A stretch of DNA of 64,000 nt from Sphingopyxis sp. L1A2A (lineage in GTDB: Bacteria; Pseudomonadota; Alphaproteobacteria; Sphingomonadales; Sphingomonadaceae), in NCBI RefSeq assembly GCF_005502465.1, contig NZ_SCOT01000001.1, forward strand, positions 62,001 to 126,000, written 5' to 3'. This document shows positions 1 to 62,014 of this stretch, piece by piece. The notes under the pieces are model-generated. The model did not search any database. It was given only the letters and a program-made list of their open reading frames with translations, and was not told where the DNA came from. The translations under genes were made by a program, and so were the position numbers. Within the stretch, counting starts at the first letter, position 1; each line of letters begins with the position of its first letter.

Positions 1-878
1 TTCGCGTCGCGGGCGCCATATTTATGGCTGTTCTCGCTGTGGATCGTCTCCCCCGCCGCCATATGATAGCGATGTCCGTCGATCGTGAAATCCATGGCGC
101 ACGCGGCGACCAGATGCATTTCGATGCGCGCATGGACATCGTCCCAGACCGCGCGGTGGGTGAAGTTTTCGACCGGAATGTCACCGCCGAGTTCGCGGTT
201 GATCCGTTCGAGCAGGTTGAGGTTGAACGCCGCGGTGACCCCCGCCGGGTCGTCATAGGCGCGTTCGAGTACGCCGACATCCTTGATCCTATCGATACCG
301 ATCAGCAGCAGCGACCCGTCGCCGAGCGCGCCGCGCCAGTGGCGCAGCAGATCGACCGCGGTGCGCGCGACCATGTTGCCGATCGTGCTGCCCGGAAAAA
401 AGCCGAGTTTGGGCAGGTCGGCGATTTCGCCCGGCAATTCGACGCGCTGGGTGAAATCGGCCTCGACCGGATAAACCGGCAACCCCGCAAAGCGCGCCGC
501 GAGCGCGCGCGCGCTGTCGCGCAGGAAGTCGCCCGAAATATCGACCGGCACATAAGCCGCGGGGGCGATCGCGGCGAGGAGCAGCGGGGTCTTGGCCGAG
601 CTGCCCGAGCCGAGTTCGACGACCGCACGCCCCGGACCGATCGCTGCGGCGAGATCGGCGGCATGGCGGATGAGCAGATCGGTTTCGCTGCGCGTCGGAT
701 AATATTCGGGGAGCGCGGTGATATCCTCGAACAGCGCCGATCCGGTCGCGTCGTAGAACCAGCGCGCCGGGATCGCCTTGGGCGTCTGGCTGAGCCCGGC
801 GCGGACGTCAGCGCGAAACGCGATATCGACTCCGGCATGGTCGGCGTCGACCTGACGCAGGCTGCGGACGACCGCCAT
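1..878 (-). CDS. egtD: L-histidine N-alpha-methyltransferase EgtD (3' end outside window)
   Basis: Reading leftward from an ATG at 878 the frame stays open to base 1, so about 292 residues are visible and the C-terminus is missing. EgtD trimethylates histidine to hercynine with S-adenosylmethionine, the first step of ergothioneine synthesis in the cytoplasm. Visible family features are an N-terminal PARWFYD segment, a SAM-binding VVELGSGSSAKT loop near residue 90, a GSTIGN segment, and an IHSENSHKY segment near the end that matches the EgtD histidine-binding region. The start lies two bases after the egtB stop (TAG-AT-ATG), so the genes are surely cotranscribed and probably translationally coupled. 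The cut is caused by the window edge, not by a mutation. Confidence 0.93.
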   Translation of the reverse strand, partial: MAVVRSLRQVDADHAGVDIAFRADVRAGLSQTPKAIPARWFYDATGSALFEDITALPEYYPTRSETDLLIRHAADLAAAIGPGRAVVELGSGSSAKTPLLLAAIAPAAYVPVDISGDFLRDSARALAARFAGLPVYPVEADFTQRVELPGEIADLPKLGFFPGSTIGNMVARTAVDLLRHWRGALGDGSLLLIGIDRIKDVGVLERAYDDPAGVTAAFNLNLLERINRELGGDIPVENFTHRAVWDDVHARIEMHLVAACAMDFTIDGHRYHMAAGETIHSENSHKYGARDA

Positions 879-880
879 AT

Positions 881-2152
881 CTAAAAATCCTTGGCTAAAC
901 GCACGCCGGTGAATTGCCAGCGCTGGTGGGGGTAAAAGAAATTGCGGTAGGCGGGGCGCAGATGGCCGCGCGGGGTCGCGCAGCTGCCGCCGCGCAGCAC
1001 GAACTGGCCGCTCATGAACTTGCCATTATATTCGCCGACCGCGCCGGGGGCGGCGCGAAAGCCGGGATAGGGGCGATAGGCGCTGCCGGTCCATTCCCAC
1101 ACGCTGCCGAACATCTGTTGCAAACCGGCGTCATCGGGGAACGCGGCGGGTTGCACCGGCCCCGCGGTATCGAGCTGCTGTCCCGCGGCCGGATCGAGCG
1201 TGGCCGCCGCGGCCTCCCATTCGAACTCGGTCGGCAGGCGCGCGCCCGCCCAGCTGGCGAACGCGTCAGCTTCGTAGAAACTGATGTGGGTGACGGGGGC
1301 GGCGGGGTCGATCGCCCGCCAGCCCGCCAGGGTGAAGTAGCGGTCACCATCCCAATAGGCGGGCGCGTCGATATTTTCGCCTTGCACCCACGCCCAGCCG
1401 TCGCTGAGCCACAGCGAGGGCGTGTGATAACCGCCGTCGGCGATAAATTGTTGCCATTCGCCGTTGCTGACCGGGCGGCTGGCGAGCACGTGCGGGGGCA
1501 AAAGCGCATCGTGCCGCGGGCCTTCGCAATCGAACGCAAAGCCGTCGCCGCCATGGCCGATCGAGACGATGCCCGCCTTGCCCTCGATCCATTTCATGGC
1601 GGAAAACTGCGCAACTTCACTCGCGATTGCCGTTTCGGCCTTCCACACCGCCGGGCCGAGCGGGTTCTGCGCAAAGAGATGTTTGAGGTCGGTCAGGAGC
1701 AATTCCTGATGCTGCTGTTCGTGCTGAATGCCGAGTTCGATCAATATGTGCGCCGCGGGTGGCAGATCGGGCAGCGCCGTCTGCACCGCAGTATCGACAT
1801 GCGCGCGCCAGATGCAGATGTCGGCGAGCGAGGGGCGGGTCAGCAGACCGCGCTGCGGGCGCGCGTGGCGCGGCCCTTCGGCCTCATAATAGCTGTTGAA
1901 CAGATAGGCGTAGCGATCGTCGAACGGGCGATAGCCCGGCAGATGGTCGCGCAGGATGAAGGTTTCAAAGAACCATGTCGTGTGCGCGAGGTGCCATTTG
2001 GCGGGCGAGGCGTCGGGCATCGACTGCGCGCTGGCGTCGGCGTCGGACAGCGTCGCGACGAGGTCGAGCGACAGGCGGCGGGTGGCAGCGAATCGCTGTG
2101 CGAGCGATTCAAGCGGTTCGGTTGTCGGACGTGCGTCGGTTCGGCTGGCCAT
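881..2152 (-). CDS. egtB: Ergothioneine biosynthesis sulfoxide synthase EgtB
   Basis: 423 residues. EgtB is a non-haem iron enzyme that joins hercynine to a thiol donor using oxygen. The N-terminal DinB-like part shows the three expected iron ligands: a His in KWHLAHTTWFF (about residue 54) and the two in HEQQHQE (about 144 and 148). The C-terminal half is a formylglycine-generating-enzyme fold with FGSVWEWTGSAY and a closing RGGSCATPRGHLRPAYRNFF segment. I do not see egtA or egtC nearby, so whether the donor is gamma-glutamylcysteine or free cysteine cannot be told. The ATG at 2152 has GGGGGA upstream. It is first of the egtB-egtD pair, and a LexA-like site lies about 75 bases upstream of it. 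Confidence 0.93.
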   Translation of the reverse strand: MASRTDARPTTEPLESLAQRFAATRRLSLDLVATLSDADASAQSMPDASPAKWHLAHTTWFFETFILRDHLPGYRPFDDRYAYLFNSYYEAEGPRHARPQRGLLTRPSLADICIWRAHVDTAVQTALPDLPPAAHILIELGIQHEQQHQELLLTDLKHLFAQNPLGPAVWKAETAIASEVAQFSAMKWIEGKAGIVSIGHGGDGFAFDCEGPRHDALLPPHVLASRPVSNGEWQQFIADGGYHTPSLWLSDGWAWVQGENIDAPAYWDGDRYFTLAGWRAIDPAAPVTHISFYEADAFASWAGARLPTEFEWEAAAATLDPAAGQQLDTAGPVQPAAFPDDAGLQQMFGSVWEWTGSAYRPYPGFRAAPGAVGEYNGKFMSGQFVLRGGSCATPRGHLRPAYRNFFYPHQRWQFTGVRLAKDF

Positions 2153-2227
2153 GATGAGACAATCCCCCGCGATGCGATTCGGTTTCGCATGAAGATTGAA
2201 TATGGTTACGCGGTAGCGAAATGTCTA

Positions 2228-2242
2228 GAACATTTAGGGAAC
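2228..2242 (-). promoter_or_regulatory. LexA-like box upstream of egtB
   Basis: Read toward egtB the sequence is GTTC-CCTAAAT-GTTC, which fits the alphaproteobacterial SOS box GTTC-N7-GTTC. It ends about 75 bases before the egtB ATG, in promoter position, and shares 13 of 17 bases (with one flanking base each side) with the box before imuA at 62000-62014. A motif with eight fixed bases is expected about once or twice per strand pair in 64 kb by chance, so this is a candidate only. Confidence 0.45.
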
Positions 2243-2393: not shown

Positions 2394-2975
2394 CTAGCGC
2401 GTCGCGCCCGGCTTCCAAAGGATGTCACCGCCCGCCGCGGCGTTCAGGTGCCGGGTGAGCACGAACAGATGGTCGGACAGGCGGTTGAGATAGGTGAGCG
2501 CGAGCGGGTTGAGGTCGCGATCCGCACCGGCCGCGACCGCCGCCCGTTCGGCGCGGCGCGTAACCGCGCGCGCAAGGTGGAGCCGCGCCGCGGCGTCGGT
2601 GCCGCCGGGCAGGATGAAGCTCTTGAGCGCGTCGAGATCGTCGTTCATGCGGTCGATCTCGTCCTCCAGCCGCGCAATCTGGCTGGGGACGATGCGCAGC
2701 GCCATGTCGTGCGGGCCGAAACCGAACTGGATGTCGGCGGGGGTGGCAAGATCGGCGCCCAGGTCGAACAGCTCGTTCTGGATCCGCGCCAGCATCGCGG
2801 CGGCGTCGCAAGCGGGGTCGAGCGCGGCGGCAGCGATGCCGATCGCGCTGTTCGCTTCGTCGACATCGCCGATCGCCGCCATCAGCGGCGCCGATTTGGC
2901 GATCCGCGAGCCGTCGACCAGCCCGGTGGTGCCGTCGTCGCCGGTGCGGGTGTAGATTTTGTTCAGTTTGACCAT
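2394..2975 (-). CDS. PduO-type ATP:cob(I)alamin adenosyltransferase
   Basis: 193 residues, the normal length for the PduO family. It transfers the adenosyl group of ATP to cob(I)alamin to make coenzyme B12. The N-terminus KIYTRTGDDGTTGL is the family's ATP-binding signature, followed by a helical bundle containing the IGDVDEANS segment and a C-terminal NRLSDHLFVLTRHLN helix. Adenosylcobalamin serves methylmalonyl-CoA mutase, which would handle propionyl-CoA produced by the valine genes at 24-31 kb; that link is inference, because no mutase is in the window. It stands alone between two repeat elements. CobA- or EutT-type enzymes are excluded by the sequence signature. Confidence 0.93.
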   Translation of the reverse strand: MVKLNKIYTRTGDDGTTGLVDGSRIAKSAPLMAAIGDVDEANSAIGIAAAALDPACDAAAMLARIQNELFDLGADLATPADIQFGFGPHDMALRIVPSQIARLEDEIDRMNDDLDALKSFILPGGTDAAARLHLARAVTRRAERAAVAAGADRDLNPLALTYLNRLSDHLFVLTRHLNAAAGGDILWKPGATR

Positions 2976-61999: not shown

Positions 62000-62014
62000 G
62001 AACAAATCAGGAAC
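62000..62014 (+). promoter_or_regulatory. LexA (SOS) box before imuA
   Basis: GAAC-AAATCAG-GAAC fits the alphaproteobacterial LexA site, and imuA is a known SOS gene in this class. It ends four bases before the ATG and includes the AGGA ribosome site, so bound LexA would cover the transcript start. Confidence 0.85.

Follow-up and report, generated by a model that had tools for sequence, protein, structure and literature searches.

In the 64,000-nt stretch of the Sphingopyxis sp. L1A2A genome analysed here, referred to as the window, the sequence GTTCCCTAAATGTTC at positions 2228-2242 of the minus strand is in all likelihood a LexA operator that places the ergothioneine genes egtB and egtD in the SOS regulon, with LexA acting as the repressor and DNA damage as the inducing signal. 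The identification as a LexA (SOS) box draws on an exact match to the motif, on its conservation throughout the genus and on its rank of 12 among the 80 matches scored in the genome, whereas the binding of LexA, its action as a repressor and not as an activator, and the biological role of the control are inferred. Judged from the sequence comparisons, the egtBD operon is a predicted new target of the known LexA/SOS system, and ergothioneine is probably made as part of the response to damaged DNA. SOS regulons are usually described in terms of DNA repair, mutagenesis, division control and mobile elements; if the proposed control is real, a redox-thiol operon behind a site conserved to the same degree as the recA and lexA boxes would extend the SOS response of this large and common family of environmental bacteria by a metabolic, antioxidant branch.

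The two genes downstream of the site are clearly assigned. The egtB gene for the sulfoxide synthase of ergothioneine biosynthesis (881-2152, minus strand) encodes a protein that scores 577.9 bits against NCBIfam TIGR03440, for which the cut-off is 360, and that contains the Pfam domains FGE-sulfatase and DinB_2, while the product of egtD, the histidine N-alpha-methyltransferase (3-878, minus strand), reaches 342.8 bits against TIGR03438 with a cut-off of 290.9. In the same profile scan of the locus proteins the SenA and OvoA models stayed below their cut-offs, and with both proteins above the curated thresholds egtB and egtD are, as far as sequence profiles tell, ergothioneine pathway genes. 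The egtD reading frame extends beyond the window start; in L186 it is complete, with 328 aa. The operon is probably limited to egtB-egtD, because the next gene, on the 3′ side of egtD, encodes what we take to be a 3-hydroxyacyl-CoA dehydrogenase-like protein. On the other side, the gene upstream of egtB encodes a PduO-type cobalamin adenosyltransferase (2394-2975, minus strand; NCBIfam TIGR00636, 178 bits) and neighbours egtB in 68 of the 73 loci of the family and in all 36 loci that carry a box. Since this gene lies on the same strand as egtB and is not divergent from it, the box can serve only egtB, and a function as operator of a divergent neighbour is excluded. The intervening stretch at 2250-2392 is GC-rich and has the look of inverted repeats; similar pieces are present between pduO and egtB in loci L114, L127, L136 and L139, and the stretch is perhaps a dispersed repeat.

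The site itself was recovered in the motif search of the window as an exact GTTC-N7-GTTC match, the motif given for alphaproteobacterial LexA in PMC8565304, and reads along the egtB coding strand 76-90 nt upstream of the ATG at 2152. The promoter position ascribed to it in the preliminary description is borne out, as the site lies just upstream of a sigma70-like promoter, P1, which consists of a -35 hexamer TAGACA (2222-2227, minus strand) and a -10 hexamer CATATT (2199-2204, minus strand), the latter being CATAAT in many relatives. The promoter scan gives TAGACA-N17-CATATT 9 of 12 matches with a 17-nt spacer, an arrangement expected 0.1 times in shuffled sequence. The box directly abuts the -35 hexamer, the box ending at 2228 and the hexamer starting from 2227, and occupies approximately the positions -50 to -36 relative to the predicted start site rather than lying across the -35 and -10 elements. 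The resemblance that had been reported to a second LexA box in the window, GTTCCTGATTTGTTC (62000-62014, minus strand), located just 5′ of a gene for which we retain the earlier name imuA, was reproduced by a hand count of 13 identical positions out of 17, including one flanking base on each side. The earlier estimate of one or two chance matches was likewise accurate, with 2 found and 1.47 expected from shuffles, and the statistics of the window alone therefore carry no weight.

Across the whole genome, GTTC-N7-GTTC occurs 80 times as compared to 51 times for the reversed pattern. The genome also encodes a LexA protein, which scores 160.2 bits against TIGR00498 (cut-off 110.95) and contains the PF01726 and PF00717 domains. 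When the 80 matches were sorted by their surroundings and the proteins beside promoter-placed boxes were named by profile models, the neighbours included lexA, recA, uvrA, a UvrD/PcrA-type helicase, radA, an SRAP protein and the ribonucleotide reductase large subunit (nrdA), along with a radical-SAM repair protein (TIGR03916) and a PA0069-type radical SAM protein; a second imuA-like gene is boxed as well, its protein scoring 55.4 bits, under the model's cut-off of 150. A weight matrix was trained on 11 of the genome's boxes that lie at SOS/DNA-repair-type genes, and with it the egtB box scores 20.4, the 12th highest value among the 80 matches, compared with 15.9-22.5 for the 11 training boxes in leave-one-out scoring. 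The box is thus in the score class of the boxes at lexA, recA, uvrA, the uvrD-like gene, radA, the SRAP gene, nrdA and the radical-SAM repair genes.

The conservation of the site within the genus was assessed in a set of 80 genomes, of which 76 had some EgtB match at E ≤ 0.001 and four (G012, G044, G058 and G075) had none. Genomes G052, G074 and G079, with weak matches to proteins other than EgtB, and G065, in which the N-terminal part of the gene is missing from the contig, were left out, resulting in a sample of 72 genomes and 73 loci, with two full copies in G067. In this sample the upstream DNA of L145 and L146 (G004 and G003) looks identical, and L182 (G063) is a gene with an in-frame stop. 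Two paralogues, L184 (G071) and L185 (G049), were excluded from the count; each is a divergent second copy of EgtB that shares 64-67% identity with the protein of the window and has no LexA box.

The alignment of the genus loci contains five conserved blocks, namely the box, T(A/G)GACA at the -35 position, CATA(A/T)T after 17 nt, CGAAACCGAATCG, and GGGGGATTGTCT before the ATG. Conservation of the box in close relatives, which the preliminary description had proposed as a check, is nearly complete: 72 of the 73 loci carry the exact box, at -88 to -91 from the ATG apart from a single case at -103, and the sole exception, L178 from a fragmented MAG, is without both the P1 region and the box and retains the last two blocks. 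On a tree of egtB codons from the 72 box-containing loci, with a total length of 8.53, the eight bases of the two GTTC half-sites require zero Fitch steps, as opposed to means of 8.0 for the box spacer, 31.0 for the 30 nt upstream, 13.5 for the -35/-10 spacer and 11.2 for third codon positions, the test being a comparison of flanks and spacer with the box and not of box frequency. The flanks of the box are saturated with substitutions. As positive controls, the box was found in front of lexA in 30 of 30 loci and in front of recA likewise in 30 of 30, these being the best 30 of 80 and the best 30 of 76 matches, respectively, and in each of the 80 genus genomes a single LexA match reaches E ≤ 1e-30. 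Conserved like the lexA and recA controls and scoring among the SOS boxes, the site appears to be correctly described as LexA-like.

The box is also not confined to the genus. EgtB was found in 309 of 397 genomes of the Sphingomonadaceae, and the upstream regions were compared for 110 non-genus loci from the approximately 301 non-genus genomes with EgtB, consisting of the 30 best matches and 80 of the next listed, which were ranked by similarity to the Sphingomonas pruni protein and are not a random sample. An exact N7 box is present at 23 of these 110 genes (7 of the 30 best and 16 of the 80 further ones) and absent from the other 87 regions, and a restriction of the box to the genus can be rejected. 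The spacing is sharply defined, with other spacings between N0 and N20 giving 0-9 of the 110 loci and permuted half-sites at N7 giving 0-7, and a matrix score of at least 13 is reached in 33 of the 110 loci versus 0.8 in letter shuffles. Among 73 loci (13 from the genus and 60 from outside it), for which the EgtB tree was also constructed, boxes are about 57 times as dense in the egtB promoter region as in the rest of the loci, with 36 boxes in 22,630 nt versus 8 in 285,011 nt.

The boxes outside the genus are found in several different settings. First, four named loci of Sphingomonas (L034-L037), with S. pruni and S. azotifigens among the species, have a box in the reverse orientation, GAAC-NNN-ATG-N-GAAC, that runs across the egtB start codon, and a start-codon-spanning box is also present in five of the ten loci (L307, L308, L312, L313 and L314) of g91, the group to which Sphingomonas pruni belongs by similarity; in these boxes the operator and the coding sequence use the same bases. 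Next, in g87 (3/3 loci) and g68 (1/1) the box, as read from the sequences, lies on the -10 element of a TTGAC promoter. Finally, seven of the eight loci in g74 have it approximately 150-200 nt before the start, just 3′ of the pduO stop codon. Among the 80 further non-genus loci, no exact box is present in groups g2 (0/6), g43 (0/7) and g76 (0/8). When mapped on the 73-row EgtB tree, the box must have been gained or lost 14 times or more, 13 of these changes being forced by well-supported branches, and this turnover within the family reflects either repeated gain or an ancient control whose sites have shifted or disappeared.

Since the box abuts the -35 hexamer of P1, a LexA dimer bound there should obstruct RNA polymerase. 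From a position upstream of the -35, activation is also possible, and LexA might instead serve as an activator in undamaged cells, with damage then lowering egtB expression. A place next to the -35 hexamer is one that activators use, and the LexA of Rhodobacter sphaeroides reportedly both optimises and represses recA, as worded in a title cited elsewhere; however, the boxes on the -10 element in g87 and g68 and those across the start codon in Sphingomonas are situated where repression would be expected, and in six loci of the genus an additional base separates the box from the -35 hexamer with the box kept intact, which makes activation an unlikely mode of action. Somewhat less probable still is that a regulator other than LexA uses GTTC-N7-GTTC at egtB, or the overlapping inverted repeat AAATGT-CTAGA-ACATTT that can be seen by eye in the window. 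The dyad is broken in L160, L171 and L172, where the spacer becomes TTCTTTT or TTTGTTT while both GTTC half-sites are retained, and is rejected as the true operator, and the GTTC motif is the same one that fronts lexA and recA in all control loci. A functionless chance match inherited among close relatives, which the window count taken alone would allow, is hardly credible, as neutral conservation is ruled out by the column test, with eight unchanged columns beside neighbouring columns of about 30 changes (unless the alignment anchor misleads), and by the N7 spacing peak outside the genus together with the half-site controls.

With LexA as a repressor, the control of the operon would proceed as follows. 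In the undamaged cell, a LexA dimer on the box, positioned against the -35 hexamer of P1, would keep the expression of egtB-egtD low. DNA damage would activate RecA, the ensuing self-cleavage of LexA would open P1, and from the open promoter the levels of EgtB and EgtD would rise and more ergothioneine would be formed.

A second promoter, P2, may lie closer to the gene. The block CGAAACCGAATCG...GATT (2161-2187, minus strand), located near the ATG and strongly conserved in the genus, is a candidate EcfG-type promoter, and the last two of the five conserved blocks read GAAAC-N17-GATT as compared to the EcfG consensus GGAAC-N16-CGTT, with the invariant AAC kept and the other positions differing. 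The plain GGAAC-N16-CGTT pattern shows no excess in the genome, with 27 occurrences versus 44 for the reversed pattern, and so lends no support by itself. According to PMC7083833, the EcfG general stress regulon of Sphingopyxis granuli TFA includes egtB and egtD; this is the operon studied here, probably in the same genus, and its membership fits the presence of a second conserved block before the ATG. In view of the partial match and of the S. granuli regulon, two promoters are proposed, P1 controlled by LexA and P2 by EcfG. P2, whose sequence agrees with the consensus in part, is probably used by the EcfG general stress sigma factors, in which case the operon would be responsive to both DNA damage and general stress, although the block may also be an RNA element or a further operator. 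The main text of PMC7083833 does not mention SOS, and the LexA box would represent an additional input. The sequence CGAAACCGAATCG has exactly two copies in the genome, the second one at G000:C55:146474 (L298).

With the alphaproteobacterial SOS regulon the egtB box has in common the motif, the score class and the conservation of the lexA and recA boxes, in genomes with one LexA each, whereas egtBD differs from the regulon in encoding thiol biosynthesis and not DNA repair, mutagenesis or cell-cycle control. The SOS system evidently works in the genus of S. granuli, since in that organism the lexA, recA, radA, dinG and SRAP genes and the imuA operons are co-induced in anoxia according to PMC6472365, the main text of which does not name egtB among the induced SOS genes. 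The same article reports two imuAB-dnaE2 operons in S. granuli, one of which has SRAP genes with adjoining locus numbers, an arrangement that resembles the present genome, where the boxes of L003 and L004 lie 3.2 kb apart. In PMC10693628, egtB is presented as one of the exceptions to the non-response of the DinB superfamily to genotoxic agents, with the strongest rise after diamide. In the open-access literature covered by our search, none of the papers describes egt genes under LexA control, and the preliminary description likewise referred to SOS control of an antioxidant thiol as not known to be described.

A link between DNA damage and ergothioneine genes as such has a precedent in mycobacteria, where it runs through PafBC and not through LexA. 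The review PMC8223512 places mycobacterial egtABCDE in the PafBC DNA-damage regulon, independent of LexA, and lists EgtC and EgtD as pupylation substrates during DNA stress. There, likewise, DNA damage drives the ergothioneine genes, yet PafBC is described as a WYL activator of Actinobacteria that functions without dependence on LexA or RecA, whereas the present site is a predicted direct LexA operator, and a separate evolution of the link is therefore suggested. The recurrence of the box outside the genus, combined with the PafBC connection in mycobacteria, suggests selection for coupling ergothioneine to damage. We lean, by a narrow balance of the evidence, towards a history in which LexA gained control of ergothioneine synthesis on several independent occasions in the Sphingomonadaceae, through non-homologous sites within the pduO-egtB-egtD locus, and PafBC did so separately in mycobacteria. 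Should this be the case, the bacterial DNA-damage response would have in ergothioneine a metabolic arm that recurs, perhaps one that shields DNA, nucleotides or repair enzymes from oxidation during repair and error-prone synthesis. The interest of the site rests on the strength of its conservation, its recurrence across the family and the mycobacterial parallel, and the LexA-egtBD link offers a concrete test of the purpose of bacterial ergothioneine.

Several other boxes in the genome have unusual surroundings. One of the two top-scoring boxes, L013 (G000:C6:52792), is identical to the box beside imuA and lies at least approximately 130 nt upstream of the rpsB reading frame for ribosomal protein S2, an unexpected SOS target. 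Strong LexA-type boxes are also found before a glyoxalase-family protein (L217, G000:C51), between glutathione-transferase-like and MoCF/CinA-like genes (L022, G000:C11:46536), before a DUF6771 protein (L214, G000:C44) and between a Na+/H+ exchanger and another ORF (L005, G000:C2), and these four are possible further SOS targets outside DNA repair. In the lexA promoter (L237), the box GTTCCACTATCGTTC is followed by an overlapping near-box, GTTCTCATTATGTCC.
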